From Nostoc sp. LPT (GTDB taxonomy: Bacteria > Cyanobacteriota > Cyanobacteriia > Cyanobacteriales > Nostocaceae), in assembly GCF_017115165.1 (NCBI RefSeq), contig NZ_JABXKF010000161.1, positions 1 to 64,000 of the forward strand: a stretch of DNA of 64,000 bases, read 5' to 3'. Under the pieces are notes generated by a model. That model had not been told where the DNA came from. It saw only the letters and a list, made by a program, of their open reading frames with translations, and did no database searches. Position numbers and translations under genes: made by a program. Of the stretch, positions 30,130-59,785 are shown one piece after another; position 1 is the first letter of the stretch, and every line of letters begins with the position of its first letter.

Positions 30130-30270
30130 AATTTTCTATTACCATAACTTTTTGCAGAAGCTGCTTACTAGACTCTTTGGTGAGTATGTAAATAGGCATG
30201 AGATTAATTACTTCGTTTGGATAGTTATGATTGTTAATTTGTTAATTAACAACTATCTTCATTTCAACAC

Positions 30271-33280: not shown

Positions 33281-33324
33281 AGCAAAAGAATTGACAACCA
33301 GATCAAAAGATTTTCTATTGTAAA
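33281..33324 (+). promoter_or_regulatory. Repeated candidate control site, copy 1 (scyA upstream)
   Basis: AGCAAAAGAATTGACAACCA followed by GATCAAAAGATTTTCTATTG. It shares TTGACA-N5-ATCAAAA-ATTTT-ATTG with the copies at 33404 and 33655 and, with one base less spacing, the site at 46361 upstream of trpEG. Confidence 0.6.
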
Positions 33325-33403
33325 TTTGGTAATGTGCCGCCCCTACATCGCAGAAGATCAATCTTTCAGAATGACTAAGTTAGAAATGTCACAATTACGA
33401 TAA

Positions 33404-33480
33404 AAGCGAAAAAATTGACACCCTGATCAAAATATTTTTCATTGCAAATAGGTTTTTATCATAGTATCTATCATTAAGTT
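33404..33480 (+). promoter_or_regulatory. Repeated candidate control site, copy 2 (scyA upstream)
   Basis: AGCGAAAAAATTGACACCCT followed by GATCAAAATATTTTTCATTG. Similarity to copy 3 continues to ATCATTAAG at the right end, giving an imperfect direct repeat of about 77 bp. Confidence 0.6.
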
Positions 33481-33654
33481 AAGAATTTCCCTAGGCGGTT
33501 AAATAAGTAAATGGGTGCAATTAAAGGTAACTATGTAAAGCTTTGTAAAGATTATGAGATGTGTTTGAGTTAAGCTTAGTTGCTCGTTTACATACCTTTA
33601 GATGATTTGGTTTATTCCTGCCAACCTACTTAAGCACTGCAATCATCACACTAG

Positions 33655-33733
33655 AAGCGAAAAATTTGACACCTCCATCAAAAGATTTTTGATTGCCCAA
33701 CGGTCTTTATCTCCTTTATTGTGATCATTAAGA
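33655..33733 (+). promoter_or_regulatory. Repeated candidate control site, copy 3 (scyA upstream)
   Basis: AGCGAAAAATTTGACACCTC followed by CATCAAAAGATTTTTGATTG, then diverged sequence ending again in ATCATTAAG. It is the copy nearest to scyA, about 210-290 bp upstream of ATG 33943. Confidence 0.6.
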
Positions 33734-33942
33734 AGCACAGCCTCAACTGTTGTATGCTTTTGGTAAAAATTTTTTGGTACTGCGCTCATAAGCATCAATC
33801 AGCAGTGACTAATCATTTCTACTATTGTCCAAGCTAGGTCATAGCTGTAAGAAACAACAGAGTTGTTTGTATTAAATATTTCTAGCGCTGTGATTGTAAA
33901 CTAAAAAGCCTTTGTGTAACTTTCTGTAATTACGTGAAACTA

Positions 33943-35826
33943 ATGAGTCAAAACTATACTGGTTCAAACTCTCCTCTGATCACCACTGAGCCATACAAGG
34001 AACTTCCAGCAAACAGATATGTAGAATCTGTGTCTGATGTTTCTGGTCAGCTTGATGAATCGGAGAATAACGGGGGAATTCAGGCTTTTTTAAAGGACGA
34101 GACAGCCCCAACGCTCTCCGTTGCTGATGCGATCGCTCAGATGTTGGAAAATTTGGGAGTAAGCTACGCTTTTGGTGTCGCCGGTGGTGCAATGGCCAGC
34201 CTTTGGGGTGCGCTATCCAATAGCAGCATAGAAGTGTTGAACTTCCGCCATGAAGCCGGAGCCGCATTTGCAGCCACCGAAGCTTACTTTGCGAATAATC
34301 GCCCCACTGTAGTTTTTACCACAGCAGGGCCGGGGATCACCAACGCCCTCACCGGATTATTTGCGGCTCGTGGTGAAGGTGCCAAGGTAATTTTACTGTC
34401 AGCTTGCACCTCAGCACCGCAGCGTGGACGCTGGGCAATTCAAGAAACCAGCACTTATACATTGCCAAGTGGAGGGATTTTTACCACAGGAGCGCTATTC
34501 AACTATGCAATCACGATTGAATCTGCGGCTCAACTACCGCAGATTTTTCGTAAACTGGCTTTGGCTATGGCGCAACCAGGCGGATTTGTTGCCCATTTGA
34601 GCATTCCTACCGCAGTGCAAACAAGTTTAGTTGAGAATATAGCCTTACCCCAACTAGATGTTTCTCCGTTTGCGATGACTGCTTCAAAAGAAGCGATCGC
34701 GAAATCTGTAGAGTTACTATCATCTGGCCTCTTTGCCATCTGGGTTGGTTTCGGTGCGCGTGACGCAGCAGACAAAATCCGCCAACTCGCAGAGAAAACT
34801 GGAGCAGCCGTCATGTGTTCACCCCGTGGTAAAGGTATCTTCCCTGAAGATCATCCCCAGTTTGTGGGTGTCACAGGTTTAGGCGGTCATGCTTCCGTCT
34901 TAACTTATATGGAACAGCAACCTCCACTACGCACACTCGTATTAGGAACCCGCCTTGGCGAACCGACTTCCTTCTGGAGTTCGGCGCTAGTTCCAAAAGC
35001 AGGCTTTGTCCATGTCGATATTGACCCAGAAGTACCAGGTGTAGCCTATCCACACGTTGAAACTTTCGGGGTTCGTTCTGACATCAAAGCTTTTGTGGAA
35101 GAGTTGTTGCAGCAATTACCAGATGCTCCTCGTTCCACAATCTCCCTACCTCGTCCAGAACACAAAGCAATTGAACCTGCTCCAGACGTAGACTATCCAG
35201 TGCGACCAGAAGTATTGATGGCAGCAATTCAAAAGATCGTTGTTGAGGGTAGCGATGCCGTAGTCATGGCAGAATGCGGTAACTCTTTTACTTGGTCAAC
35301 ACATCTACTGCAATTTTCCGAAGCCAATCGTTACCGAGTCAGTACCGGAGTTGGCGCAATGGGTCACGCCGTCACTGGAGTGTTGGGTGCAGCGTTGGCA
35401 AACAATGGTAAGGCTGTAGGGATTGTAGGTGATGGAGCAATGCTGATGAATAACGAAATCAGCACAGCCGTGAAATACAAAATTCCCGCAATCTGGATCG
35501 TACTCAACGATGCGCGTTACAACATGTGTCATCAAGGGATGAAAATCTTGGGATTAAAGGGCGCAGATGCAACAATTCCACCAACAAACTTTGCGATGAT
35601 TGCTCGTGGGATGGGAGCAGAAGCGATCGTCGTTGTCAGAGAGTCGGATATCGAACTAGCATTAGAACAAGCGATCGCATCAACTGTTCCCTTTCTCATC
35701 GATGTAGTGATTGACGCCGATCGACCAGCACCTTCTGGTGGACGTAATAAAAGTTTGGCAGCCCAAGGAATTAAATCAACTCCCGCGAAAAATGCAGTCA
35801 AGCAAGTTTCATTTCCAATGATTTGA
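33943..35826 (+). CDS. scyA: ScyA, thiamine-diphosphate acyloin synthase of scytonemin biosynthesis
   Basis: 627 residues from ATG 33943 (a GTG three codons earlier is also in frame). Acetolactate-synthase fold: N-terminal PYR domain with AIAQMLENLGVSYAFGVAGG and catalytic E104 in NFRHEAGAAFAATEAYF; central domain; C-terminal PP domain with GDG (496-498) and NN (503-504) of the ThDP/Mg2+ motif. In N. punctiforme, ScyA joins indole-3-pyruvate and p-hydroxyphenylpyruvate into the beta-keto acid precursor of the scytonemin monomer. The first 55 residues are a family-specific extension. First gene of the scy block, behind the 1.69-kb control region. Confidence 0.96.
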   Translation: MSQNYTGSNSPLITTEPYKELPANRYVESVSDVSGQLDESENNGGIQAFLKDETAPTLSVADAIAQMLENLGVSYAFGVAGGAMASLWGALSNSSIEVLNFRHEAGAAFAATEAYFANNRPTVVFTTAGPGITNALTGLFAARGEGAKVILLSACTSAPQRGRWAIQETSTYTLPSGGIFTTGALFNYAITIESAAQLPQIFRKLALAMAQPGGFVAHLSIPTAVQTSLVENIALPQLDVSPFAMTASKEAIAKSVELLSSGLFAIWVGFGARDAADKIRQLAEKTGAAVMCSPRGKGIFPEDHPQFVGVTGLGGHASVLTYMEQQPPLRTLVLGTRLGEPTSFWSSALVPKAGFVHVDIDPEVPGVAYPHVETFGVRSDIKAFVEELLQQLPDAPRSTISLPRPEHKAIEPAPDVDYPVRPEVLMAAIQKIVVEGSDAVVMAECGNSFTWSTHLLQFSEANRYRVSTGVGAMGHAVTGVLGAALANNGKAVGIVGDGAMLMNNEISTAVKYKIPAIWIVLNDARYNMCHQGMKILGLKGADATIPPTNFAMIARGMGAEAIVVVRESDIELALEQAIASTVPFLIDVVIDADRPAPSGGRNKSLAAQGIKSTPAKNAVKQVSFPMI

Positions 35827-36129
35827 TTTAAAAAGCTTGCAATCTCATTCAATTCTTATAGACACTAAGACACTCCAAGAAAGCGGAATTTACAACGCAG
35901 TTTGGATGAGTCCATTCAGCAAAACATAAAGGATGAATTTAGAAGCGGCAAAAATTTTATTCCAGGCAACAACTACGCCCACCAAGCTGGAATGTTTTAT
36001 TTTTGAAGATTACTCTTTTCTAACTTCATCTTATCTTAATATTCCAGAGTGTTTTTGTGTCTATATCTTTACATTTCGTAATGGTCATTACTTTCTCTAA
36101 ACAATTCCAACCAATATCAAGAGGTGAAA
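35827..36129. other. scyA-scyB spacer
   Basis: 303 bp, long for neighbouring operon genes. No open frame and no repeat block. AAGAGGTGA at 36119-36127 is the ribosome binding site for scyB. A secondary promoter or an mRNA processing site is possible but not visible as a motif. Confidence 0.3.
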
Positions 36130-37191
36130 ATGCTGCTATTTGAAACTGTTAGAGAAATGGGTCACGAACAAGTTCTCTTTTGTCATGGTAAAAATCCCGA
36201 AATTAAGGCAATAATCGCCATTCATGATACGAGCTTGGGCCCAGCAATGGGAGCTACAAGACTTATGCCTTATGTCAACGAAGAAGCTGCTTTAAAAGAT
36301 GCACTTCGTCTGAGTCGGGGAATGACATATAAAGCAGCCTGTGCGAACATTCCGGCTGGTGGGGGAAAAGCAGTCATTATTGCTAATCCTGAAAATAAAA
36401 CAGACGATCTGTTGAGAGCTTACGGACGTTTTGTTAATAGCCTAAATGGACGTTTTATTACCGGACAAGATGTCAATATTACTCCTGATGATGTGCGGAC
36501 AATTAGTCAAGAAACGAAATATGTTGTTGGGGTATCAGAAAAGTCCGGTGGCCCTGCTCCCATAACATCACTAGGAGTTTTTCTCGGAATTCAAGCTGCT
36601 GTAGAATCTCGTTGGCAGAGCAAAAGACTTGATGGCATGAAAGTTGCAGTTCAAGGCTTAGGAAATGTTGGTAAAAATCTCTGTCGGCATTTACATGAGC
36701 ATGATGTCCAGCTTTTTGTTAGCGATGTAGATCCAGTAAAAGCGGAAGAGGTAAAACGGCTTTTTGGCGCAACTGTTGTAGAACCAACCGAAATTTACTC
36801 ACTTGATGTAGATATCTTTTCTCCTTGCGCGTTAGGAGGAATTCTTAATAGTCATACAATTCCTTTCCTCCAAGCGAAAATTATTGCTGGTGCAGCTAAT
36901 AATCAATTGGACAATGAGCAATTACATAGTCAAATGCTTGCCAAAAAAGGGATTCTTTACAGCCCTGATTATGTAATTAATGCCGGAGGGCTAATTAATG
37001 TTTACAACGAAATGATTGGTTATGACGAAGAAAAAGCTTTCAAGCAAGTGCATAACATTTATGACACGCTATTAGCAATTTTTGATATTGCTAAACAGCA
37101 GGGAGTAACTACCAACGATGCTGCTAGACGATTAGCAGAAGACCGAATCAACAATAGTAAGCGAACCAAGACTACAGCGATCGCAGCCTAA
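36130..37191 (+). CDS. scyB: ScyB, leucine dehydrogenase-like tryptophan dehydrogenase
   Basis: 353 residues from ATG 36130 with AGAGG 5 bp upstream (GTG 36124 is a weaker option). Glu/Leu/Phe dehydrogenase fold: catalytic lysines K68 in MTYKAACANIPAGGGK and K80 at its end, and NAD-binding GLGNVG (176-181). ScyB oxidatively deaminates tryptophan to indole-3-pyruvate, feeding ScyA. It is 303 bp after scyA and 25 bp before scyC. Confidence 0.95.
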   Translation: MLLFETVREMGHEQVLFCHGKNPEIKAIIAIHDTSLGPAMGATRLMPYVNEEAALKDALRLSRGMTYKAACANIPAGGGKAVIIANPENKTDDLLRAYGRFVNSLNGRFITGQDVNITPDDVRTISQETKYVVGVSEKSGGPAPITSLGVFLGIQAAVESRWQSKRLDGMKVAVQGLGNVGKNLCRHLHEHDVQLFVSDVDPVKAEEVKRLFGATVVEPTEIYSLDVDIFSPCALGGILNSHTIPFLQAKIIAGAANNQLDNEQLHSQMLAKKGILYSPDYVINAGGLINVYNEMIGYDEEKAFKQVHNIYDTLLAIFDIAKQQGVTTNDAARRLAEDRINNSKRTKTTAIAA

Positions 37192-37216
37192 TTGTTATTA
37201 TCTTAAGGAGTGAACA

Positions 37217-38188
37217 ATGGAAAAAAATACCTTTGCTACATCAGCTTATATTGCAACTTCACCAGAGAGCGCCTTTGACTACCTTTGTAGTTTAAAAAAC
37301 TTGGATGAATGGACGCTTTATAGTCGGATGAAAGAGCAAATTGACGAAGATACCTGGCTTGGAACTGCATCCGGTTATCACAAAAATCTCTATTATCACG
37401 TTAAAAAACTAGAAAATCCACTTTTCTACGGCATTGAATGGCACTGTGGATTAGAGTATCAGAAATATTTTCAGGTTTACCCTGTCTTGCTATTTCCTAC
37501 AGACTATATCGAGCCAGGAACAGATGAAAAAGGTGTGTATTTTCACTGGTTGAGCTTTGTCGATCCCAAACGGCAGACTCAGATGATTATGCAGGGAATT
37601 CACACAGTACACACTTCCGAGTGTCGTTCTCTCAAAGGTAATTTGGAACGTAAAGCTGGTCTGACCGCAGCAGCTAAAGGAAGCCACTTTATCGATACAG
37701 ATACCATTTATGTTGATGCCCCAATTGAAATTGGCATTGAATACTTAAAGGACTTAAAAAATGTAGATGAGTGGGCACATTTACTGCGACCAAATGGTGA
37801 TATTACTTCTGATTCCGGTGAATTCAAAGATGAATATGACCAAAAAGTAAAAGTGTCTGTGCGAGTTCATAGTCTGAGTAAATACTACTTACTTGAACAA
37901 GAACATTTTTATCCAGACTACGAATATTATCAGCGTTCTGTAGCCTTACTTATCCCAACTGCATACTCTTTCGCCGATCCCGAAGCTTCAGGTTTCATCC
38001 TGCATCGAATTACATTCTGGAAAACAGATGGAACAGTTAGTCACGGCAAACTTCAAATTGAAGACTTTGGTGCTGAGAGCATGAACATCAAACGTTTACT
38101 CGAAGCCAAAGCAGGCAACCTCAAATCATTTGACCGAGGAATGAGCTATCTACCAAAAACTCCAGAATCACTAGTTACCAACTACTAA
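37217..38188 (+). CDS. scyC: ScyC, scytonemin cyclase
   Basis: 323 residues; ATG 37217 follows AAGGAG. ScyC cyclises and decarboxylates the ScyA product to the tricyclic ketone in the N. punctiforme pathway. It looks internally duplicated: TSAYIATSPESAFDYLCSLK-NLDEW at about 8-32 matches DTIYVDAPIEIGIEYLKDLK-NVDEW at about 161-185, and each half ends with a lysine/leucine helix (NLERKAGL and RLLEAKAGNLKSF). The pattern is that of two SRPBCC/START-like helix-grip domains in tandem. No signal peptide, so cytoplasmic, as expected for an early step. Confidence 0.93.
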   Translation: MEKNTFATSAYIATSPESAFDYLCSLKNLDEWTLYSRMKEQIDEDTWLGTASGYHKNLYYHVKKLENPLFYGIEWHCGLEYQKYFQVYPVLLFPTDYIEPGTDEKGVYFHWLSFVDPKRQTQMIMQGIHTVHTSECRSLKGNLERKAGLTAAAKGSHFIDTDTIYVDAPIEIGIEYLKDLKNVDEWAHLLRPNGDITSDSGEFKDEYDQKVKVSVRVHSLSKYYLLEQEHFYPDYEYYQRSVALLIPTAYSFADPEASGFILHRITFWKTDGTVSHGKLQIEDFGAESMNIKRLLEAKAGNLKSFDRGMSYLPKTPESLVTNY

Positions 38189-38280
38189 AATCTCGGCGTT
38201 ACTCTGCGCTTCCCTCAGCGTTCTCTGCATTTAAAATTCACCCCTCAATTCCCCACGATTGATTACTTGTATTGCAACAC

Positions 38281-39615
38281 ATGAAACTCAAGTCACTTAC
38301 TATTACTATCCTCACTTTTTGTGTTGCCGCTTTTTCGGGAATGAAAGCTGCGTCAGCCGCATCCTTTTCAGTAATCGCCGACGGTCTATATAATGCCGGT
38401 GGTCTGAGCTTTGGCCCTGATGGCGATCTCTATGTTACAGAAGCAGGAATCGGGGGAAGTGGAGCTTGTGTTCCACCAGCAAGCGGTCAAGGTGATTCTT
38501 TATGCTATGGCACAAGTGGGGCAGTTACCAAAATTGAGAATGGTAAAACCGAGCGCATACTTACAGGACTTCCTTCTATAGCATTACCAGATGGTACTGG
38601 AGCCGGTGGCCCTCGTGATATCCAATTTGATCCCAAAGGTAAACCTTATGTTCTGATTGGGTATGGGGCTAATCCAGCCTTTCGCGATCGCAATTTAGGT
38701 TACACTGACCTCGGTAAAATCATTGCTCCCGACTTTAAGACCAATTCCTGGACGAGTGTTGCAGATTTAGCTAACTATGAACTCGCCAATAATCCCGATG
38801 GTGGTGATGTCGGTAGCAATCCCTTGGGTTTTGTAATAGATGGTAATAAATTGGTTGCAGCTGATGCAGGCGCAAACGACTTACTCCGTTTTAATACTGT
38901 TAGTAATAATTTGCAGGCGATAGTTGCGTTTCCCCAAGACATATTAACTAATCCCATCTTTCCACCTTCTGATACCCCATCCAATGAACCTGCACAAGTG
39001 CCATCTCAAGATGAAGTAGTGCGATCGCCTACGGCGGGGCTTCTCCTGTCGGAGACGCTCCGCGAACGCCCATCGCAGTTTGCAACTCAACCAGTACCCT
39101 CAAGTGCGGCAAAAGGGCCTGATGGCGCTTATTACGTCAGCCAATTTACCGGGTTTCCTTTCGCTGAAGGTGGGGCAAAAATCTATCGAGTCGGTGCTGA
39201 TGGAACACCAACAGTCTTTGCCGATGGTTTTACCCAACTCACAGACTTGCAATTTGATTCTGCGGGCAATTTATATGCTTTGCAGTACGCCAATCAGTCA
39301 GCGTGGAAGGGTAATTTTGATGGTTCTGTAATCAAAATAGCTCCCAATGGCACACGCACAATTCTTCTGAGTGGCAATGGATTAGAGTCGCCTAGCGCCC
39401 TGACTATTGGTTCTGATGGTGCAGTATACGTCACCAACCGAGGCGATCGCCCAGGACTTGGACAAGTTCTCAAAATTGAGAATACCAAGTCTATTCCTGA
39501 ACCTGATTCTGCTTTAGGCGTATTAGCGATCGCTGCCTTGGGCGTTGGTTGGTTGCACAAGAAGAAAGAGCTAGCTACCAAACCTCCCATAAATACAGTC
39601 GTGGCGCTCAAATAA
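38281..39615 (+). CDS. scyD: ScyD, exported PEP-CTERM beta-propeller protein
   Basis: 444 residues from ATG 38281 (a TTG three codons earlier is also in frame). Signal peptide MKLKSLTITILTFCVAAFSG ... ASA, then a propeller-like ScyD/ScyE family domain with repeated GPDG-LYVTE/YV strands, ending in a PEP-CTERM tail IPEPDSALGVLAIAALGVGW with a K-rich end. Likely periplasmic or surface; its exact chemical role in scytonemin maturation is not settled. A 51-bp dispersed repeat (39021-39071) is inserted in frame, adding about 17 residues including RSPTAGLLLSETLRERP; the ScyE paralogue lacks them. Confidence 0.93.
   Translation: MKLKSLTITILTFCVAAFSGMKAASAASFSVIADGLYNAGGLSFGPDGDLYVTEAGIGGSGACVPPASGQGDSLCYGTSGAVTKIENGKTERILTGLPSIALPDGTGAGGPRDIQFDPKGKPYVLIGYGANPAFRDRNLGYTDLGKIIAPDFKTNSWTSVADLANYELANNPDGGDVGSNPLGFVIDGNKLVAADAGANDLLRFNTVSNNLQAIVAFPQDILTNPIFPPSDTPSNEPAQVPSQDEVVRSPTAGLLLSETLRERPSQFATQPVPSSAAKGPDGAYYVSQFTGFPFAEGGAKIYRVGADGTPTVFADGFTQLTDLQFDSAGNLYALQYANQSAWKGNFDGSVIKIAPNGTRTILLSGNGLESPSALTIGSDGAVYVTNRGDRPGLGQVLKIENTKSIPEPDSALGVLAIAALGVGWLHKKKELATKPPINTVVALK
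39021..39071 (+). repeat. Dispersed repeat inserted in frame inside scyD
   Basis: 51 bp reading GCGATCGCCTACGGCGGGGC-TTCTCCTGTCGGAGACGCTC-CGCGAACGCCC, a repeat type I know as common between Nostoc genes. Its length is a multiple of three and the scyD frame reads through without a stop. It sits in a surface loop region that is also variable in ScyE. Confidence 0.7.
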
Positions 39616-39750
39616 AGAGTTTCAAACCAATATCAGTGCCTCTCAATAAAGGCATTATTTACCCTGCGTTTTTTAAGGACTAAGATTCTTTGTCTTTAAA
39701 ACCATAAAAGTTTCCACAAACAAATTACTTAACTCTCAATCTCCAAAGGT

Positions 39751-41127
39751 ATGAAACTCAAGTCATTTGCTCTTACATCTGTTACATTTTGTTTTACCGC
39801 TATTTGTGGAACACTATCTGCACAAGCTGCAACATTAACAACTATTGTCGATGGAATCAGTAATGCACGGGGTGCTAGCTTTGGCCCTGACCGCAGTCTC
39901 TACGTAGCAGAGCCAGGTATCGGCGGAAACGGAAATTGCCAACCATCTCCGAGTACGCTGTTTCAGCCTATCTGTGCTGGTAATAGCGGTTCATTGGTCA
40001 AAGTTTCACCAAACGGTACCAAACAGCGTCTACTTAATAACTTTCAGTCTCTAGCAGAACAACCTAGTGGCAACCAAGGCGCTGGTATTCAAGACATACA
40101 ATTCGACTCTAAAGGGAATGCTTATCTGCTGACTGGCTTTGCTGGTTATCCAGGAAACCGCGATCTAGCAACACTTAACCTTGGTTCGCAATCCGCACTC
40201 CCACCACAGCAACTTGCGACTTTCCCGCCATCAACACCCGATAAAGTTTTGAATACACCGCTTTTAGCACAACTTTACCAAGTTGACTTGAACACAGGAT
40301 CTCTCAACAGTATTTTTGACTTTGCCAAAAATGAAATCACCAAAAATCCAGACAAAGGGGATGTAGTTACCAATCCCTATGACCTGACTGTTAGTGGTGA
40401 TAGTGCTTATGTCGTTGACGGGGGCGGGAACACTGCTTACAAAATTAAACTTGATGGAAGCAAGTCAGAGGCGATCCCAATTCCTAAAAACATCATTAGT
40501 GACTCCGACTTGCCACCAGGATTACAATTACCTCCTGGGCTATTAGAGCAGCTTCCAGGAGGAAAAACAGCAATTCAATCAGTACCCACAGGTGGCGCAA
40601 TTGGCCCCGATGGAGCTTTATACGTTGGTGAATATACAGGTTTTCCTTATCCAGAAGGTAAATCACGGATTTTCCGCATTGGTGACGATCTCAAACCAGA
40701 AGTTTTTCTGGATGGCTTTACGCACATCACCGACCTAACCTTTGATGACAAAGGCGATTTGCTGGTTTTACAGTTCAGCGACACCTCCCAATTAGGCGGT
40801 GACATCACAAATCTACCTGGTTCTCTTATCCAAGTTGCTCCTGACGGCACTCGTACAACACTCGTTGCAGCAGGTCAAGGGCTAGATTCGGCTGATGGAA
40901 TTGATATTGGTCCTGATGGCAAGATTTATATTACAAATCGCGGTGTTGGCCCAGGACTAGGAGAGGTTGTTCGGGTGGATGGTATCGTTACAGAAAAAAT
41001 CCCCGAACCTGGTTCAGTAGTTGGCTTATTAGCACTTGCTGGTGTAGGCGCAACTACTGCTTTCGCCAAGCGCAAACGCCAAGAAAAGTTGGGCGAAGAG
41101 TTGCTAACCAAAGCAGAGACTGTCTAA
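39751..41127 (+). CDS. scyE: ScyE, exported PEP-CTERM beta-propeller protein
   Basis: 458 residues. Signal peptide MKLKSFALTSVTFCFTAICG ... AQA; about 40% of strands line up with ScyD (ARGASFGPDRSLYVAEPGIG, VPTGGAIGPDGALYVGEYTG, GIDIGPDGKIYITNRGVGPG). The C-terminus IPEPGSVVGLLALAGVGATT followed by a basic end is a PEP-CTERM anchor. Periplasmic/surface partner of scytonemin assembly in N. punctiforme. 135 bp separate it from scyD, with a small hairpin TGCCT / AGGCA plus ATTATTT (about 39636-39661). Confidence 0.94.
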   Translation: MKLKSFALTSVTFCFTAICGTLSAQAATLTTIVDGISNARGASFGPDRSLYVAEPGIGGNGNCQPSPSTLFQPICAGNSGSLVKVSPNGTKQRLLNNFQSLAEQPSGNQGAGIQDIQFDSKGNAYLLTGFAGYPGNRDLATLNLGSQSALPPQQLATFPPSTPDKVLNTPLLAQLYQVDLNTGSLNSIFDFAKNEITKNPDKGDVVTNPYDLTVSGDSAYVVDGGGNTAYKIKLDGSKSEAIPIPKNIISDSDLPPGLQLPPGLLEQLPGGKTAIQSVPTGGAIGPDGALYVGEYTGFPYPEGKSRIFRIGDDLKPEVFLDGFTHITDLTFDDKGDLLVLQFSDTSQLGGDITNLPGSLIQVAPDGTRTTLVAAGQGLDSADGIDIGPDGKIYITNRGVGPGLGEVVRVDGIVTEKIPEPGSVVGLLALAGVGATTAFAKRKRQEKLGEELLTKAETV

Positions 41128-41165
41128 TTTCTGTTTACCTGGTGTCAGGTAAAGTTTATAGAATA

Positions 41166-41214
41166 GGCTGCTGCCTCATAGAGAAAGTTGCATTTCCAAC
41201 AAGAGGCAGCAGCC
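41166..41214 (+). terminator. Hairpin between scyE and scyF
   Basis: Perfect 12-bp inverted repeat GGCTGCTGCCTC / GAGGCAGCAGCC with a 25-nt loop. No T-run follows, so it may be a processing or mRNA-stabilising structure rather than a full terminator. Confidence 0.5.
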
Positions 41215-41298
41215 CAAATTTCAGAGTTCCCGAACTGGGACTGGGAACAAAATTAGTCTAGGAACGAGTATACCTCATACAACCAGGACTTCAAACTC

Positions 41299-42495
41299 AT
41301 GGGATTAGTCAAAAATTTATCAATCGGCATTCTCGGTACTGGATTCATGGTGTTGGCAACAGCAGCCCAAGCCAAGGCTGTAACATTAACTTACGACAGA
41401 AGTATCGGCGAACCTGGCTTCGGTTCTGGGCAACTGTTTGTTCCCCAAGGCATAGCGGTGGATAGCCAAGGGAATACCCTTATATCTAACGGACGCGGTG
41501 TTAACCCGGATGGTACTCCTAACTACAACCTCGGTGACAAAATTGAAAAATTTAGTCCAAGCGGTCAGTATATTGGAGCAATTGGCTCAGGCGGCACAGG
41601 ACCCGGACAGTTTGACGAGCCAACAACTGTAGACTTTAATCCCATAACAGGGGATTTGTATGCAGGTGATGTTTACAACAACCGTATCAATCAATTCGAT
41701 TCTCAGGGTAACTTTATTAGATCCTTTGCAAACGGAGATTTTACCCCTCGCGTAAATGATAGGATTTTCTTTGGACCATCTGGTGTAACATTTGACAAAA
41801 CTGGCAACGTTTACGTAGGTGATTTTAACGGCGAAAGAATCCTTAAATTCACACCTGACGGACAGCAAATTGGTGTCATTGGTGGCACTCTGGGCACTGC
41901 ACTTGGAGAAACTCAAGGTGTAGCAGGTGTAAGAATTTCCCCAGTCAGTGGAAATATCTTTCTAGCTGACCAGTATAACAACCGCGTTCAAGTACTCGAT
42001 CCAAATGGTAAACCTCTGTACGCATTTGGTTCAGCAGGTAGCGGGCCTGGACAGCTTCTTCAGCCAATTGGCATCGAAGTGGACGACCAAGAGAATGTTT
42101 ATGTAGCTGATTCTATCAACAGCCGCGTTCAGGTATTTGATAAAAACGGTAACTTCTTGACTTCCTACGGTCAACCAGCCCTAGATGCATCAGGCAACCC
42201 AGTTCCGCCTCCAGGATTAACTGACCCCCCATTTGGCAATCCCCTCGACCTTACACCAGGCAGATTTAACTGGACGGGTGGCACAGCCCTCAAAGATGGC
42301 AAGCTTTATGTGGGCGATTTCTTCCAAGGTCGCGTTCAAGTGTTAAACGTAGAAGGCACAAGGAAAGTACCGGAACCTAGTTCAGCATTGGGTTTAGCAT
42401 TGCTTGGATTTGGGGCTGCTACCGTTAGATTGCGGAAACGTGGGCAACAAAAGCCAGTCTTCAGTTTAGAGAAAGAACTGCAAAAACAGTGCTGA
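41299..42495 (+). CDS. scyF: ScyF, exported NHL-repeat PEP-CTERM protein
   Basis: 398 residues. Signal peptide up to AAQAKA, then about six NHL blades such as GQFDEPTTVDFNPITGDLYA-GD-YNNRINQFD and VYVADSINSRVQVFDKNGNF, forming a beta-propeller. C-terminal PEP-CTERM sequence VPEPSSALGLALLGFGAATV with RLRKR end. NHL propellers bind proteins or ligands; in the scytonemin cluster ScyF is the third exported protein next to ScyD and ScyE. A 171-bp gap with the hairpin separates it from scyE. Confidence 0.93.
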   Translation: MGLVKNLSIGILGTGFMVLATAAQAKAVTLTYDRSIGEPGFGSGQLFVPQGIAVDSQGNTLISNGRGVNPDGTPNYNLGDKIEKFSPSGQYIGAIGSGGTGPGQFDEPTTVDFNPITGDLYAGDVYNNRINQFDSQGNFIRSFANGDFTPRVNDRIFFGPSGVTFDKTGNVYVGDFNGERILKFTPDGQQIGVIGGTLGTALGETQGVAGVRISPVSGNIFLADQYNNRVQVLDPNGKPLYAFGSAGSGPGQLLQPIGIEVDDQENVYVADSINSRVQVFDKNGNFLTSYGQPALDASGNPVPPPGLTDPPFGNPLDLTPGRFNWTGGTALKDGKLYVGDFFQGRVQVLNVEGTRKVPEPSSALGLALLGFGAATVRLRKRGQQKPVFSLEKELQKQC

Positions 42496-42558
42496 GTTCT
42501 GATGCTTGAGTAACAGTGCAGTAGTGTGTCAAGTTGAAATTAATAGGTAAACAAGTTC

Positions 42559-42584
42559 GTAGTAAGGACTAAAGTCCTTACTAC
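42559..42584. repeat. Dispersed palindrome GTAGTAAGGACT
   Basis: GTAGTAAGGACT-AA-AGTCCTTACTAC, perfect 12-bp stem with only two bases between. A relative with a longer stem lies at 9525-9573. It lies 25 bp before the glycosyltransferase start within the scy block. Confidence 0.65.
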
Positions 42585-42608
42585 AAATCTTCAAAACATT
42601 AACGGTTA

Positions 42609-43898
42609 ATGCACATTCTGATTTATTCATACAACTATCATCCAGAACCAATTGGTATTGCACCTTTGATGACTGAACTAGCAGAAGGGCTGGTGAAGCG
42701 AGGGCACCAAGTGCGGGTAATCACAGGTATGCCTAACTATCCTCAGCGTCAGATTTACGATCGCTATCGGGGTAAGTTATACGTTACTGAAAAGAAAAAT
42801 GGTGTCAAAATTCAGCGTAGTTACCTGCGGATTAAGTCTAAACCTAACCTTGTAGATCGGCTACTGCTAGAGTTGAGCTTTGTCTTTACAAGTTTGCCAC
42901 AAGCTCTCAAGGGTGAGCGACCTGATTTAATTCTCTTAACAGTGCCACCGTTACTCGTTTGCTTACCTGCAACCTTAATAAGTTGGCTATACAACTGTCC
43001 AGTAGTCCTGAATGTGCAAGATATCCTCCCAGAAGCTGCTGTGCGTGTTGGGCTAATTAAAAATAAGTTGATGATTCTCGCTTTAGAAGCTTTAGAAAAA
43101 TTTGCCTACCGAAATGCACATACCATTAGTGTGATTGCTGATGGCTTTGTGGATAATTTAATAAATAAAGGTGTACCTGTTAATAAAATTGCCTGCATTC
43201 CAAATTGGGTAAATCTAAATTTTATCCGCCCTTTACCAAAAAAGAATAACTATTGGAGAGCTACCCATCAACTCGATGGTAAATTTGTAGTGCTTTATTC
43301 AGGTAATATTGCTCTCACGCAAGGTTTGGAGACAGTAATAGAAGCAGCAGCTTGCTTGCGCCATATTAATGATATTGTCTTTGTCGTAGCCGGCGAATCC
43401 CAAGCTCTCGAAAGGTTGCAAAAACATTGTCTTGCTTGTGGTGCAGATAACGTATTGCTTTTACCATTGCAACCGCGAGAAAAACTACCGCAAATGTTAG
43501 CAGCTGCTGACGTCGGGTTGATTGTGCAAAAGTGCAATGTGATTTCTTTCAATATGCCTTCTAAAATACCATTGTTGTTAGCCAGTGGTCGCCCAATTGT
43601 AGGTTCAGTTCCCGCCACTGGTACTGCTGCCAAAGCTATTCGAGAAAGTGGCGGCGGTATTATCGTTAAGCCAGAGTCAGCAGATGCTTTAGCCACTGCG
43701 GTATTGGATTTATATAATCAGCCGGAACTAGCAGCAAAATTAGGGCGTGAAGGAAGAAAGTTTGCGGTAGAAAACTATTCCTTTGAGCAAACGCTAGATC
43801 GGTATGAAGAGTTATTTTCTAATATGATTGCCAAAAGAGCAACAACTTTGGATATGTTGCCAAAATTGAGTTCTCAGGAATCAATTGTTGATATTTGA
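42609..43898 (+). CDS. WcaI-type GT4 glycosyltransferase of the scytonemin cluster
   Basis: 429 residues, GT-B fold. MHILIYSYNYHPEPIGIAPL at the start and MPNYPQRQIYDRYRGKLYVT are WcaI-type features; the donor domain has VVLYSGNIALTQGLETVIEA and FNMPSKIPLLLASGRPIVGS. It occupies the place of Npun_R1270, downstream of scyF. Glycosylated forms of scytonemin or attachment to sheath polysaccharide are possible roles; the acceptor is unknown. Its end overlaps the longest tyrA frame by 4 bp and lies 15 bp before the preferred tyrA ATG, so the two are probably translated together. Confidence 0.88.
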   Translation: MHILIYSYNYHPEPIGIAPLMTELAEGLVKRGHQVRVITGMPNYPQRQIYDRYRGKLYVTEKKNGVKIQRSYLRIKSKPNLVDRLLLELSFVFTSLPQALKGERPDLILLTVPPLLVCLPATLISWLYNCPVVLNVQDILPEAAVRVGLIKNKLMILALEALEKFAYRNAHTISVIADGFVDNLINKGVPVNKIACIPNWVNLNFIRPLPKKNNYWRATHQLDGKFVVLYSGNIALTQGLETVIEAAACLRHINDIVFVVAGESQALERLQKHCLACGADNVLLLPLQPREKLPQMLAAADVGLIVQKCNVISFNMPSKIPLLLASGRPIVGSVPATGTAAKAIRESGGGIIVKPESADALATAVLDLYNQPELAAKLGREGRKFAVENYSFEQTLDRYEELFSNMIAKRATTLDMLPKLSSQESIVDI

Positions 43899-43912
43899 AA
43901 ATTGGAAGAAAA

Positions 43913-44971
43913 ATGCCTTTGAAATCCTCTTATTCAGATCGGCTGAAAAAAACTGATGAAAGGTTGATTGCCTTATTGAGCGATCGCATATCATTATTAG
44001 CAGCATCAGAACAACCTTCTTTAGATGAACAATTGGCTGATGTCGCTCCCCTACTCGCCCAAGCTGGTATTCCTGAGTCTGTTTGGACAGGTGTAGTAAA
44101 TAGTTGTTATACTACTCTAATTCCTAAATCTGCAACAAATCATGTCAGTCCCCGAAAAATTACGATCGTCGGTGGATGCGGCAGGATGGGAAGATTATTT
44201 AAAGAGCAACTTTCGTTAGTTGGTAACAATGTTAGCGTTCTAGAACATGAAGATTGGAAATACGCAGATCAACTGTTAAGTCAGGCAGAATTAGTATTAG
44301 TAAGTGTTCCTATTGAACATACAGTTGATGTTATCAAGCGTGCAGCTAAATACCTCGCCCCAACCACCGCTTTGTGTGACATCACGAGTATTAAAGTACA
44401 GCCAACTCAGGCGATGCTCGAACACCATTCCGGGCCAGTCATGGGTTTACATCCAATGTTTGGGCCAAATATAAAATCGTTTTTTGGACAAAAAGTAGTG
44501 GTGTGTCCAGGTCGAAACGATGATTCATTTCAATGGTTTTTAGACATTTTTAAAATCCAAGGAGCCGAGTTAGTTGCTTGCACGCCTGAAGAACACGATC
44601 GGATGATGGTGATTATTCAAGCAACCCAACATTTCTGTAGATTTAGTCTTGGCGTTTTCTTAGCAGAAGCAAAAATTGACATAGAGCAGAGTTTAACAAT
44701 GTCAACTCCTAACTATCGTCAAGAAATTGATATTGTTAAACGTTTGTTTTACCAAAACCCTCACTTATGTGTGGATATTATGCTAGCTACAGAAGAAAGG
44801 TGTGATGCAATTAGCTTTTTAGCTGATACTTACAGCAGTTTGGCAAGACTGGTAGCGATGAAAGATAGAGACGCATTAATTCAAGAATTTGAAAAGGCTC
44901 AAAGCTTTTTTGAAGATAAAATCAACACTTTTCTACAACCTTTAAACACAACTGCTAAAGCGGCTATTTAA
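43913..44971 (+). CDS. tyrA: Prephenate dehydrogenase with N-terminal chorismate-mutase-like domain
   Basis: 352 residues from ATG 43913 (GGAAGAA upstream); a TTG at 43895 is possible. The N-terminal 75 residues resemble an AroQ chorismate mutase helix bundle (DRLKKTDERLIALLSDRISL). The dehydrogenase follows with the NAD loop GGCGRMG (87-93), CDITSIKV and LHPMFGP, very like the bifunctional E. coli T-protein rather than the short cyanobacterial arogenate dehydrogenase. It would make p-hydroxyphenylpyruvate, the second ScyA substrate. Confidence 0.92.
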   Translation: MPLKSSYSDRLKKTDERLIALLSDRISLLAASEQPSLDEQLADVAPLLAQAGIPESVWTGVVNSCYTTLIPKSATNHVSPRKITIVGGCGRMGRLFKEQLSLVGNNVSVLEHEDWKYADQLLSQAELVLVSVPIEHTVDVIKRAAKYLAPTTALCDITSIKVQPTQAMLEHHSGPVMGLHPMFGPNIKSFFGQKVVVCPGRNDDSFQWFLDIFKIQGAELVACTPEEHDRMMVIIQATQHFCRFSLGVFLAEAKIDIEQSLTMSTPNYRQEIDIVKRLFYQNPHLCVDIMLATEERCDAISFLADTYSSLARLVAMKDRDALIQEFEKAQSFFEDKINTFLQPLNTTAKAAI

Positions 44972-45008
44972 CGAGATTTTCAACCAAAGATGCACATAAA
45001 TAAAAAAT

Positions 45009-46205
45009 ATGATAGTTGACATCAAGCAAAAAAGTAGATTAATTCATCAACGTGTTTCGGTTACTTTCGACTACGAAGTTTACTTCACCCAAAATTTATT
45101 TGAGTTGAAAAATCCCACACTAGCGCAAGTGATTGCAGCAGATGGGGAGACTAAGCCGAAAAAAGTAGTTGCAGTGGTAGACGCAGGAATATTAAAGTAT
45201 CAACCTGAATTGGTGAAGCAATTAGTCGCGTATACCAAGTTTTATGGAGAGGTACTAGCGATCGCAGCCCAACCGATGATAATTTCGGGAGGAGAAGCTG
45301 CTAAAAACGATCACACTTTAGTAGAGCAAATCCAGCAACTAATTGAAGCTGCCGGATTATGTCGTCACTCCTACATATTAGCGATCGGGGGCGGGGCGGT
45401 GTTGGATTTGGTAGGATATGCAGCTGCAACTGCTCACCGAGGAATTCGCCTAATTCGGGTGCCAACAACAGTGTTAGCGCAAAATGATTCTGGGGTTGGC
45501 GTCAAAAACGGCATCAACGCTTTTGGTAAAAAGAATTTTCTCGGCACATTTGCGCCACCTTATGCAGTTATAAATGACTCTGCGTTCTTGACAACTCTAG
45601 ACGCTCGCGATTGGCGTTCTGGAATCGCAGAAGCAATCAAAGTGGCGTTGATTAAGGATGCTAGCTTTTTTGATTTTATCCACTCTCACACCGCAGCTTT
45701 GAGGCGGCGAGATATGGATACTATGCAACAGGTTATCTATCGTTGCGCTCAGTTGCATTTAGAACATATTGCCAATGGCGGCGATCCTTTTGAAATGGGT
45801 TCGTCTCGTCCCCTGGATTTTGGACATTGGGCGGCTCATAAGCTGGAGCATTTGACAAATTATCGCTTGCGTCATGGCGAAGCAGTTGCGATCGGTATTG
45901 CTTTGGATAGCACTTACTCTTATTTAGCAGGATTGCTAGATTGTTCGGAGTGGCAACGGATATTAAATACTTTATTGGCTTTGGGTTTTACGTTGTATGT
46001 GTCAGAACTAGCTAAGAAATTATCACAATTGGAAGATCCTCATTGTTTGTTTTGGGGTTTGACTGAATTTCGCGAACATTTGGGGGGAGAGTTAACTTTA
46101 ACACTCTTACAAAGGATTGGAAAAAGTATTGAGGTTCATGAGGTGAATTTGTCTTTGTATAAGCAAGCAATTTCGCTGTTGCAAGAGGCGAAGGGGAATT
46201 TTTAA
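45009..46205 (+). CDS. aroB: Dehydroquinate-synthase-family sugar phosphate cyclase
   Basis: 398 residues. NAD-dependent cyclase fold: ILAIGGGAVLDLVGYAAATA, RGIRLIRVPTTVLAQNDSGV, KNFLGTFAPPYAVINDSAFL. In scytonemin clusters this gene is called aroB and placed in the supply of chorismate. The usual AroB stretch near NLGHTFGHAIE is replaced by DFGHWAAHKLEHLTNYRLRH, although HGEAVAIG is kept. The gene could therefore be a divergent 3-dehydroquinate synthase or a related cyclase such as the EboD type (inference). It starts 37 bp after tyrA with no dsbA between. Confidence 0.85.
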   Translation: MIVDIKQKSRLIHQRVSVTFDYEVYFTQNLFELKNPTLAQVIAADGETKPKKVVAVVDAGILKYQPELVKQLVAYTKFYGEVLAIAAQPMIISGGEAAKNDHTLVEQIQQLIEAAGLCRHSYILAIGGGAVLDLVGYAAATAHRGIRLIRVPTTVLAQNDSGVGVKNGINAFGKKNFLGTFAPPYAVINDSAFLTTLDARDWRSGIAEAIKVALIKDASFFDFIHSHTAALRRRDMDTMQQVIYRCAQLHLEHIANGGDPFEMGSSRPLDFGHWAAHKLEHLTNYRLRHGEAVAIGIALDSTYSYLAGLLDCSEWQRILNTLLALGFTLYVSELAKKLSQLEDPHCLFWGLTEFREHLGGELTLTLLQRIGKSIEVHEVNLSLYKQAISLLQEAKGNF

Positions 46206-46599
46206 ATCCATAGGCGCTTCCTTCGCCTTCCCGTAGGGTAGGTACGCTGAGGGAAGCGCAAAAAAACGCAGAGGTTTTATCAGATTATTTATTACTTTTG
46301 GGGGAGGTAGAGATTTTTAAATCGGATTGTTGGTAAATGTATTAAAAAAGCAGTATAAAAAGCGAATAAATTGACATCCAATCGAAAAATTATTCAATGT
46401 ATTGTTTGCTTGACATCTAGTATTCTTAAATAAGAAGCAAAAAGTTTTTTATTACATTTTTTAGAAATCATACAATAATTAAAATAAGTTGACTTAGATT
46501 GACAGCATATTATCTAATGCTACTACTTTAAAAATAACTACTAATAATCAATTGCTGCTTATTGATGATTGACTAATAACTATTTCAGAGAAATTACTC
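46206..46599 (+). promoter_or_regulatory. trpEG upstream region with dispersed repeat and shared control site
   Basis: 394 bp. The left part (46210-46272) is a dispersed repeat with GGCGCTTCC ... GGAAGCGC complementarity that can end transcription of the scy block. The remainder is AT-rich and holds the site at 46361-46404. The gap marks a second transcription unit beginning with trpEG. Confidence 0.6.
46361..46404 (+). promoter_or_regulatory. Repeated candidate control site, copy 4 (trpEG upstream)
   Basis: AGCGAATAAATTGACATCCA followed by ATCGAAAAATTATTCAATGT. It matches the scyA-upstream copies in AGCGAA-AAATTGACA, ATC-AAAA and the following T-rich/ATTG-like part, with one base less between TTGACA and ATC. 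About 195 bp upstream of the trpEG ATG. Confidence 0.5.
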
Positions 46600-48804
46600 A
46601 TGATTTTTGATTCCCGTTCTTACAAAACTCTTAGCGGTGTAAGTGTTTCTCGCTCCATCACTGAAGTTAAGATGGACACTGCCCTCGAAGATATTCTGTT
46701 CCATTTAAATTCTCAGCGTGGAGGGTTGCTAAGGAGTAGCTACGAATATCCAGGCAGATATAAAAGATGGGCGATCGGATTTGTTAATCCACCGCTAGAA
46801 TTGACTACGCAGGATAATGCTTTCACTTTGATAGCATTGAATGAACGCGGTCAAGTGCTTTTGCCATTCCTTTTAGAGAGACTATCCCAGTCAGAACAGC
46901 TCGAGAACGTCACCCAAGAAAATAACAATATCGTCGGCTTTATTAAAGCTACAAAAGAATTATTTCCTGAAGAAGAACGTAGTAAACAGCCTTCATCATT
47001 TACAGTTGTCCGCGAAATTCTATATACTTTCTCTAGTCAAGAAGATGAGCATTTAGGCTTGTATGGTGCGTTTGGTTATGACTTAGTTTTTCAGTTTGAA
47101 CCAATTGCCCAACACTTGGAGCGTCCTACAGATCAACGCGATTTGGTGCTTTATTTGCCAGATGAATTGATTGTTGTTGACTACTATCAGCAACGTGCAT
47201 TTCGTCTACAATATGATTTTCAAACAGCGCACGGCAGCACCAAGAATCTTCCTAGAACAGGTGAGTCTGTTGATTATCGCGGTAAACATCTTCTACCAAA
47301 TCAAACTGCTGACCACAAAGTAGGCGAATATGCCAAAAAAGTTGAGATTGCACTCGATTATTTCCGCAGAGGCGATTTATTTGAAGTTGTTCCTAGTCAA
47401 AACTTTTTTGAAGGCTATGAAGATGAACCCAGCAAACTATTTAACACTTTAAAGGAAATAAATCCTAGTCCTTATGGGTTTATTTTTAATTTAGGTGGCG
47501 AATATCTGATTGGTGCATCTCCAGAAATGTTTGTGCGGGTTGAAGGTAGGCGGGTAGAAACTTGTCCCATTAGTGGCACTATTAGCCGGGGACAAGATGC
47601 TCTTGACGATGCGGTGCAAATTCGTCAGTTACTCAACTCTCATAAAGATGAAGCTGAGTTGACCATGTGTACTGATGTCGATCGCAATGACAAATCCCGA
47701 ATTTGCGAACCTGGTTCAGTACGAGTCATTGGTCGTCGCCAAATTGAATTATACAGCCACCTGATACATACAGTAGATCATGTTGAGGGTACTCTGCGAT
47801 CGCAATTTGATGCCTTAGATGCCTTTCTTTCGCATACATGGGCAGTTACAGTCACCGGCGCACCCAAAAGGGCAGCAATAGACTTTATTGAACGGCACGA
47901 AAAGAGCGCCCGACGTTGGTATGGTGGAGCAGTCGGCTATTTAAATTTCAACGGTAATTTAAATACTGGCTTAATTCTGCGGACAATCCGCTTAAAAGAT
48001 TGCATCGCCGAAGTGCGAGTCGGGGCTACTGTCCTTTATGACTCCATACCCCAAGCAGAAGAACAAGAAACAATTACTAAAGGCGCTGCGTTATTTGAAA
48101 CGATTCGGCGTGTAAAGCAAACGAGTCAGAAAATTGATGAGTCCGGTTCTCTGAAATTAAGTAAACACGTCCCAGGTGTAAAATCTGGCAAGCGCATCTT
48201 ATTAATAGACTACGAAGACTCATTTGTTCATACCTTAGCCAATTACATTCGCCAAACTGGTGCAAGCGTTACCACACTGCGTCATGGTTTCTCAGAATCG
48301 CTATTCGATACAGAACGCCCTGACTTAGTTGTTTTATCTCCTGGGCCTGGTAGACCAAGTGATTTTAGGGTTTCCGAGACTGTCGGCGCCCTTCTGCATC
48401 GCCAAATTCCTATTTTCGGAGTTTGTTTAGGATTGCAAGGCATTGTTGAAGCTTTTGATGGCGAGTTGGGAGTTCTCAACTATCCTCAACATGGTAAATC
48501 TTCACGGATTTTCGTCACCGATTCCAATTCTGTCACCTTCAAAAACTTACCCGAATCCTTTGCAGTCGGTAGATATCACTCATTGTTTGCCCTACCGCAA
48601 CGTTTGCCAAAAGAACTGAAAGTAACAGCAATTTCTGATGACGACGTAATTATGGGCATTGAACATCAGACACTTCCCATCGCCGCCGTTCAGTTTCATC
48701 CAGAATCAATCATGACTTTAGGTGGAGAAGTCGGTTTGGAAATCATTAAAAATGTGGTGCGTGCATATACGCAGGTCGAAGATTCATTAGTCATTAGTCA
48801 TTGA
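46600..48804 (+). CDS. trpE: Fused anthranilate synthase TrpE-TrpG
   Basis: 734 residues. Component I (about 1-520): LLRSSYEYPGRYKRWAIGF, the feedback-site region, and GASPEMFVRVEGRRVETCPI-SGT, TMCTDVDRNDKSRICEPGSV, TVTGAPKRAAIDFIE. Component II glutamine amidotransferase (about 535-725): VVLSPGPGRPSDF, nucleophile C609 in FGVCLGLQG, and H700/E702 in QFHPESIMT. One protein supplies ammonia and makes anthranilate from chorismate, as in other fused TrpEG. First gene of the second scytonemin block, dedicated to tryptophan supply. Confidence 0.95.
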   Translation: MIFDSRSYKTLSGVSVSRSITEVKMDTALEDILFHLNSQRGGLLRSSYEYPGRYKRWAIGFVNPPLELTTQDNAFTLIALNERGQVLLPFLLERLSQSEQLENVTQENNNIVGFIKATKELFPEEERSKQPSSFTVVREILYTFSSQEDEHLGLYGAFGYDLVFQFEPIAQHLERPTDQRDLVLYLPDELIVVDYYQQRAFRLQYDFQTAHGSTKNLPRTGESVDYRGKHLLPNQTADHKVGEYAKKVEIALDYFRRGDLFEVVPSQNFFEGYEDEPSKLFNTLKEINPSPYGFIFNLGGEYLIGASPEMFVRVEGRRVETCPISGTISRGQDALDDAVQIRQLLNSHKDEAELTMCTDVDRNDKSRICEPGSVRVIGRRQIELYSHLIHTVDHVEGTLRSQFDALDAFLSHTWAVTVTGAPKRAAIDFIERHEKSARRWYGGAVGYLNFNGNLNTGLILRTIRLKDCIAEVRVGATVLYDSIPQAEEQETITKGAALFETIRRVKQTSQKIDESGSLKLSKHVPGVKSGKRILLIDYEDSFVHTLANYIRQTGASVTTLRHGFSESLFDTERPDLVVLSPGPGRPSDFRVSETVGALLHRQIPIFGVCLGLQGIVEAFDGELGVLNYPQHGKSSRIFVTDSNSVTFKNLPESFAVGRYHSLFALPQRLPKELKVTAISDDDVIMGIEHQTLPIAAVQFHPESIMTLGGEVGLEIIKNVVRAYTQVEDSLVISH

Positions 48805-59404: not shown

Positions 59405-59785
59405 AGTTGTCCTTTTTTGACTAAAATAACAAAGTTAGCTAATGTAAAAATTAGGTTTAACTTTTAAAAAAATATAAGTATTTTATGGTGGGTAATACCC
59501 TGAAAACCTTGAGATGGTGGGTATTGCCACCCTACGAGCAAGTTACAAAGTATAGATTTACTTGATAAATAGCCTTTAATATTGATTAAACAAATTTTAT
59601 ACAATGTTAGTTAATACACTTTGTTAATAACTCTTAAAAAGAAGTATAAATTTATTTATTTACGACTTCAATGATTTATTTGTTGATCTTGAATGAATTA
59701 TTTTTATATTTAGTTGCATAAAATATTAGATAAATGGTGATAAGAGGGTGTTTGAAAAGTTTTGAGGAGTCAACTTTTATGCCAG
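59405..59785. other. Intergenic region, PEP-CTERM gene / IS remnant
   Basis: AT-rich. Contains GGTGGGTATTGCCACCC (59517-59533), a small hairpin, and GGTGGGTAATACCC (59486-59499), a related inverted motif. Promoter region of the PEP-CTERM gene on the left. No gene seen. Confidence 0.3.

Follow-up and report, generated by a model that had tools for sequence, protein, structure and literature searches.

The 64,000-nucleotide window analysed here (positions 1-64,000 of contig NZ_JABXKF010000161.1 of Nostoc sp. LPT; all coordinates refer to it unless prefixed) contains the gene cluster for scytonemin, a sunscreen pigment of cyanobacteria, and within it an element of about 40 bp that appears three times upstream of scyA and once upstream of trpEG (trpE in what follows), the first genes of the scy unit and of the aromatic supply unit, respectively. 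Judged by its sequence, this element is a genuine operator-promoter of the scytonemin system, with a regulon that includes low-complexity and PEP-CTERM proteins. It very probably belongs to the response regulator encoded next to scyA, and the reading that we favour, to which we give a probability of about 0.77, is that each site would be an operator for the kinase and AraC-type response regulator pair of the cluster (29242-32250).

The four sites are all on the plus strand, the same as scyA and trpE, in agreement with a preliminary description of this DNA that had seen four shared sites oriented like the downstream genes. The two distal scyA copies are located at 33281..33325 (AGCAAAAGAATTGACA-ACCAG-ATCAAAAGATTTTCTATTG, 46.9 bits in the genome scan) and 33405..33449 (AGCGAAAAAATTGACA-CCCTG-ATCAAAATATTTTTCATTG, 48.5 bits), the promoter-proximal copy at 33656..33700 (AGCGAAAAATTTGACA-CCTCC-ATCAAAAGATTTTTGATTG, 45.3 bits), its start 287 bp upstream of the scyA ATG, and the trpE operator at 46361..46404 (AGCGAATAAATTGACA-TCCA-ATCGAAAAATTATTCAATG, 37.7 bits). 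The starts given in the preliminary description were exact for the first and the last of these and one base early for the other two (33404 and 33655). Of the four, the trpE copy diverges most, with a spacer of 4 bp and an ungapped identity of 26/40 to copy 2. We have scored the sites with a matrix made from the ungapped rows of an alignment (A1) of 66 sites from other genomes, window sites excluded; the three scyA copies reached 54.5, 53.7 and 51.7 and the trpE copy 33.4, whereas no score above 11.2 was obtained from 30 Markov sequences of 64 kb.

The element is built as a direct repeat. Its half-sites, AGCGAAAGAATTGACA and ATCAAAAGATTTTTCA, have 16 bp each, are set 21 bp apart and close with a TTG. 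In the individual sites a left half-site similar to AGCGAAAAAATTGACA, which includes TTGACA in every copy of the window, is followed by a spacer of 5 bp (4 bp at trpE) and by a right half-site similar to ATCAAAAGATTTTTCA. The identity between half-sites is 0.54 at a shift of 21, and no other shift between 8 and 31 exceeds 0.44. These 21 bp correspond to two helical turns, and two direct-repeat half-sites at about this distance are the arrangement expected of AraC/XylS operators. Operators of OmpR/PhoB-type response regulators are direct repeats of about 11 bp; this type was rejected, since the identity at a shift of 11 is 0.33 versus 0.54 at 21 and the effector domain of the regulator is AraC-type. 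At one of the further sites of the same genome (C58, see below) three half-sites could be read by eye in a row, 21 bp apart, followed by TACACT at 23 bp from the -35 position.

The end of the element carries the marks of a promoter. In a set of 90 sites (scyA, trpE and other sites in 51 loci plus the window) the final T, T and G are conserved in 79/90, 89/90 and 89/90, and TAnnnT starts 23 or 24 bp downstream, counted from the terminal TTG (a spacer of 17 or 18), in 62 of the 90, with every other offset at 18 or fewer. The -10 box is absent from the matrix, and the -10 counts are therefore independent of the element model. We have also examined a set of named genomes with 77 usable scyA loci (the window and 76 of 80 related loci, four having less than 300 bp before a forward scyA match), which have one (35), two (9) or three copies (33). 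There TAnnnT appears at this spacer in 77/77 proximal copies, where the second half-site abuts the -35 element in the sequence, versus 1/75 distal ones; this set overlaps with the genomes behind the matrix, so its counts are non-independent for the element and independent for the -10 box. The median start of the proximal site is 284 bp upstream of scyA. In the window, copies 1 and 2 have no TAnnnT at spacer 17/18 from the terminal TTG. With this geometry in the proximal and not in the distal copies, the proximal copy seems to be a promoter with TTG as its -35. The copy at 33656 looks like a complete activator-dependent promoter and those at 33281 and 33405 like auxiliary sites. Its predicted elements, all on the plus strand, are a -35 at 33693..33698 (the TTG closing the copy, from its conservation and fixed distance to the -10) and a -10 box TATTGT at 33717..33722 (spacer 18), from which transcription of scyA would start near 33729 with a predicted 5' leader of about 210 nt (33729..33942). 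The predicted -10 box of the trpE unit is TATTCT (46421..46426, plus strand), from which a start near 46433 would follow. In contig G298:C1 the model places the scyA start near 5345785 (minus strand), some 207 nt upstream of the gene. Among sites outside the model (38 of 40 off-cluster loci and six own-genome sites; 41 distinct, some near-identical), a -10 box lies 23/24 bp from the TTG in 34 of 44. Just past the predicted scyA start (33729-33790) a stretch AGAAGCACAG...TGCTT is conserved in the Nostoc leaders and may form a small 5' hairpin.

The preliminary description had also taken TTGACA as a possible -35 element, and ordinary sigma-70 promoters of this kind, three in tandem before scyA and one before trpE, would account for its presence in each window copy. 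At the farthest Nostoc copy, TATTGT is indeed found 19 bp past TTGACA in nine sites, including 33281, and this copy might be a weak second promoter. However, TAnnnT at 17/18 bp past TTGACA appears in 0/90 sites versus 62/90 for the terminal TTG (3/90 at spacer 16 and 9/90 at 19, these nine being all the farthest Nostoc copy), and about 35 conserved bases over many genera exceed the needs of plain -35 boxes. We consider this explanation very improbable, and TTGACA belongs to the left half-site instead of acting as a general -35 box.

In the mechanism that we favour, a dimer of the response regulator would bind the two 16-bp direct-repeat half-sites 21 bp apart. At the proximal copy the second half-site would abut the TTG serving as -35, with TAnnnT as -10 some 17-18 bp further on, and the bound regulator, presumably controlled by phosphorylation, would recruit RNA polymerase in an AraC/XylS-like manner. 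Transcription of both scyA and trpE would be dependent on the regulator, coupling the making of the pigment to that of its aromatic precursors. The distal scyA copies, without the usual -10, would probably accommodate further dimers on the same helix face and may cooperate with the proximal one. Distances between scyA copies group at 124-126, 146 and 250-252 bp; their helical phase at a period of 10.5 bp, the best of five periods tried, gives R 0.68 for 75 distances and R 0.42 (p ~0.009) for the 27 distinct ones.

The element is retained in orthologous loci. Using scyC (37217..38188, plus strand) as bait, we found a ScyC match in 52 of the 388 genomes of the order, including the window's own, and stretches of all 51 other scyC loci were taken for gene mapping. 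A test matrix made only from the three scyA copies of the window, unrefined and ungapped, was applied to at most 800 bp upstream of scyA and compared with 200 shuffles (L051, L057, L059 and L071 were excluded from this count, their contigs being too short). It surpassed all shuffles in 10/10 same-genus loci and in 21/22 loci of other genera in which the regulator adjoins scyA, the single miss (L065) having a 4-bp spacer unfit for an ungapped matrix. A refined matrix with variable spacer, trained on the same scyA regions, gave at least 40 in 34 of the 51 regions before scyA, among them each of the 32 where the regulator adjoins the gene, the maxima being 5.0 in 255 shuffles and 9.4 on the reverse strand. 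Upstream of trpE, the site is found in 32 of 34 regions of the named genomes.

The element is also rare. A scan of the whole genome (8.6 Mb) gave seven sites at E<1e-5, of which four are those of the window. The candidate control site put forward in the preliminary description for the scyA and trpE units is supported as specific, rare and conserved; the motif is neither common throughout the genome nor absent before the orthologous genes, two outcomes that the description had named as refutations. Copies 2 and 3 form a direct repeat, which had been described as imperfect over 77 bp and actually extends over about 60 bp at 80% identity (past position 45 only 15/32 are identical). One could think from this repeat of a dispersed sequence, a remnant of a mobile element or a local duplication devoid of function. 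Against such an origin, which we find hardly credible, are the low number of sites in the genome, their same position at the promoter across genera, their sense orientation and the conservation of the half-sites with a free spacer.

The proposed binder of the operator is encoded at 29242..30129 (minus strand) and has a receiver domain (REC) and an AraC-type double helix-turn-helix in Pfam (HTH_18 at 5.6e-20, HTH_AraC at 9.3e-16), which agrees with the AraC-type response regulator first noticed beside the sites. Its presumed partner is a PAS-containing sensor histidine kinase (30271..32250, minus strand, Pfam). Among the candidates scored in its own genome (150 of 171), no other protein matches the regulator over the full length at E<=1e-25, and three match it over a single domain at this threshold. 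Beyond this genome, the operator accompanies the regulator subfamily in three settings, i.e., the scy loci (32), the trpC type (7/8) and the L144/L149 type, both described below.

Several observations weigh against the assignment of the operator to this regulator or against the promoter model. Where scyA has no regulator beside it, the three-copy matrix surpasses the shuffles in just 1 of 15 loci; these loci retain the scy genes and have weaker sites, mainly near trpE in several, and 8 of the 15 contigs hold a regulator homologue (47-55% identity) some 13-18 kb from scyC. Either the operator has diverged there or the wiring may be different. A second protein of the genome (C63:19115-19444, L289), one of the three single-domain matches, has an AraC domain without receiver. 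Over residues 176-285 its DNA-binding domain is 57% identical to that of the scytonemin regulator, and this protein could recognise the same element. The helical phasing of the scyA copies comes from related genomes and is suggestive only. The -35-like triplet at trpE is ATG instead of TTG (46397-46399), and 10 of the 44 outside sites are without a -10 box at the expected place. Six of these ten (L119, L125, L132, L137, L113 and L143) precede repeat-protein genes, and a second site about 115 bp closer to the repeat-protein gene is present at C121 and in at least L132, L137 and L143.

The C63 protein and the loci without an adjacent regulator make it conceivable that the main binder of the operators is another regulator, be it that protein or a UV-/redox-responsive factor (UV, ultraviolet), the cluster regulator acting indirectly or sharing the sites. 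We regard this as unlikely. The operator tracks the subfamily of the cluster regulator in the three settings, the genome has no other full-length match among the candidates scored, and a 21-bp direct repeat abutting the -35 is the arrangement of AraC-family activators. Binding by the regulator of the cluster remains the preferred reading.

The cluster itself was named by comparison (the literature cited from here on is represented by excerpts of each source). Pfam identifies scyA as a thiamine pyrophosphate enzyme (33943..35826, plus strand, with ATG preferred over a GTG at 33934), an ELFV dehydrogenase (scyB), TrpC, a tyrosinase and, at 46600..48804 (plus strand), trpEG with chorismate-binding and glutamine amidotransferase domains. 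NCBIfam adds ScyF, a glycosyltransferase, a TyrA-like dehydrogenase, TrpB, TrpD, DAHP synthase and an aromatic amino acid transporter. The published scytonemin gene order, as excerpted from PMC2726228, matches, and the names scyA-E were assigned by it; these domain matches and this order together identify the window cluster as that of scytonemin.

The regulon appears to be wider than the two transcription units that the preliminary description had regarded as the exact set, since two more places have sites at E<1e-5 (C109:12497-12535, and C121 at 26114 and 26001) and two have weaker ones (C29 and C58). The C121 sites precede a Gly/Pro-rich repeat protein (P0002) and a GNGNW-repeat protein (P0003). 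The C29 site (E 7e-4), with TAAACT at the right place, precedes an intact PEP-CTERM-like protein of 216 aa (P0004, C29:39682-40329) that falls just under the cut-offs of TIGR04155 and PF07589, and the C58 site (E 0.003) precedes another repeat protein (P0005). A match of lower rank, in C37, lies inside an open reading frame (ORF) on the opposite strand.

The C109 site is in the ebo region, recognised by NCBIfam matches for EboA, EboC and EboE and, for EboB, by similarity to a gene named from its order. It lies about 3.4 kb before eboA, and the first ORF, which follows it after 201 bp, is a PEP-CTERM remnant of 90 aa from a family whose intact members have 214-218 aa. Direct control of ebo by this site was considered and rejected, the nearest target being this decayed gene; the acyl-CoA dehydrogenase gene that lies 516 bp past the site might be read from it. 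No operator was found directly upstream of the ebo genes in the genome studied here, which is consistent with the report, in the excerpt of PMC8879130, that eboE of N. punctiforme shows no significant change under UV-A. Members of the P0004 family that are truncated and still preceded by the operator are seen near ebo at L112:8025-8297 (minus strand) and G240:C1:5854189-5854398. In L112 a lone Rfam match to CRISPR-DR33 (L112:8561-8597, 41.9 bits) precedes the operator of the ebo region by about 25 bp.

A distant paralogue of P0004 by similarity, the PEP-CTERM-like protein P0006, is encoded in the window (58715..59404, minus strand). Upstream of it there is a weak and tentative operator (59663..59707, minus strand) with TATACT at spacer 17, although its score with the A1 matrix is only 8.8, less than the maximum (11.2) obtained with the 30 random sequences. 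Members of this family match AOC_like in Pfam in 7 of 26 cases (best 1.7e-5) and Dirigent in 2 of 26 (best 0.0095). A PDB search with the profile of the 26 members found allene oxide cyclases only, at E ~0.5, below significance, and a single-sequence structure model of P0006 was unusable (mean predicted local distance difference test score, pLDDT, 31).

Similar targets are found in other genomes. With stricter filters, 43 of the 51 other scyC genomes carry sites at E<=1e-3, from 1 to 9 per genome, and we have examined the genes downstream of 40 such sites outside the scy loci. Low-complexity repeat proteins follow 21 of them: six P0002-like, six P0003-like (in L133 and L134 as the second gene) and nine by eye, that of L147 assigned only because its site is that of L145. 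The remainder precede P0004-type PEP-CTERM genes (5, one of them a remnant), a ScyD-like gene (1), trpE (3), a second trpC (5), genes of the L144 type (3) and genes left unassigned (2). Matches among low-complexity proteins may partly reflect composition, and several have no signal peptide by eye. Along these lines, the scytonemin regulator probably co-activates several genes for little-known proteins. More tentatively, and in our opinion with the odds somewhat against it, these genes could make up a regulon of sunscreen and sheath, in which pigment, aromatic precursors and dedicated extracellular-matrix proteins that hold the pigment in the sheath are switched on together by a single two-component system. 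The matrix proteins proposed are the Gly/Pro/Ser-rich repeat, the GNGNW-repeat and the allene-oxide-cyclase/dirigent-like PEP-CTERM families. At the boldest, and by analogy with the dirigent proteins of plants, the PEP-CTERM family might steer the oxidative dimerisation of the pigment; a secreted barrel of this kind co-regulated with a dimeric pigment would, if true, be of interest.

In relatives that lack scyC, a related operator is found close to trpC and a paralogous regulator. As a control, we have scanned with the same filters 80 genomes of the order that had given no match to ScyC; 17 have a site at E<=1e-3, all at 34.3 bits or less, and 12 of their 20 matches were examined. Eight of the 12 precede trpC, seven of these with a homologue of the regulator (50-63% identity) and five with one of the kinase (45-58%). 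Two of the others have no such neighbour, one lies past a regulator gene (L245) and one is in an eroded scy cluster (L243, G292) that has a partial scyA and no ScyC match and has kept kinase, regulator and a partial operator. Related operators near a regulator homologue and trpC are found at L142:2001-2160 and in L139, L239-L242, L247, L249 and L250. In most trpC-type sites a stretch with GAAGCTGCTTC follows; shortly past the -10 a hairpin of this kind is seen, in some with a GC-rich stem and then T-rich sequence, and a small RNA or an attenuated leader is possible. No known RNA was found by Rfam at the trpC-type sites L139, L142, L146 and L158, and the same search, including L112 and L113, returned only three tRNAs and one CRISPR repeat. 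A third type of operator is found in L144, L149 and L150; in the first two of these it lies 25-50 bp past the gene of an AraC-type regulator. In L144 (2001-10322) the site precedes a carrier-protein-like ORF, a weakly AurF-like second ORF and a large ORF that, from its start only, was labelled polyketide-synthase-like; L149 and L150 have genes of 460-465 aa. This is perhaps another metabolite cluster under a like control. Scytonemin may have taken over an older module of kinase, regulator and operator, or the transfer may have gone the other way.

In the literature, the interaction of the scy regulator with control elements is said to need elucidation still, and identification of a UV-specific cis element is called crucial for engineered production of scytonemin (both in the excerpt of PMC7997468). 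The excerpts of PMC2726228, PMC6282210, PMC8879130 and PMC12188702 describe no operator for the scy genes, and a literature search found no published scytonemin motif, a weak test given that much of what it returned was papers without the word scytonemin. As far as we have searched, the operator-promoter is undescribed. A candidate cis element and its putative contact with the regulator can now be given as exact coordinates (half-sites, -35, -10 and predicted start), membership of the regulon can be searched for in any cyanobacterial genome, and the unannotated proteins that are candidates for co-regulation could help to explain how an extracellular pigment is built up into the sheath.

The closest likenesses are with well-known activators. 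AraC at araI1-araI2 of araBAD occupies two half-sites in direct repeat with a period of about 21 bp, and the second of them is in contact with the -35 region; it differs in responding to a sugar and in having a DNA-looping repression state, of which the scytonemin sites show no evidence. At the Pm promoter the period of the direct repeats is 21 bp as well. There, as proposed here, a dimer of an AraC-family protein, XylS, binds two direct repeats, of 15 bp, each with two boxes contacted by two helix-turn-helix motifs, and the sites of activator and polymerase overlap according to the title of one of the references (excerpt of PMC5481539). XylS differs in its inducers, which are of the benzoate type instead of phosphorylation, and in its half-site boxes (TGCA/GGTA), and no phased distal copies are described for XylS/Pm in that excerpt. 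XydS/XydR of Clostridium cellulolyticum is, like the pair studied here, a histidine kinase with a REC-AraC regulator, which activates the adjacent cluster and a further gene and binds a few hundred bases upstream of start codons (excerpt of PMC3572039); it belongs to another lineage and function, and its excerpt describes no operator consensus. In N. punctiforme, the regulator Npun_F1278 and the kinase Npun_F1277 are found in the same place beside scyA, with the same domains, and the regulator is needed for scytonemin (excerpts of PMC2726228 and PMC7997468). Deletion of this regulator abolished scytonemin and strongly lowered transcription (PMC7997468, citing Naurin 2016).

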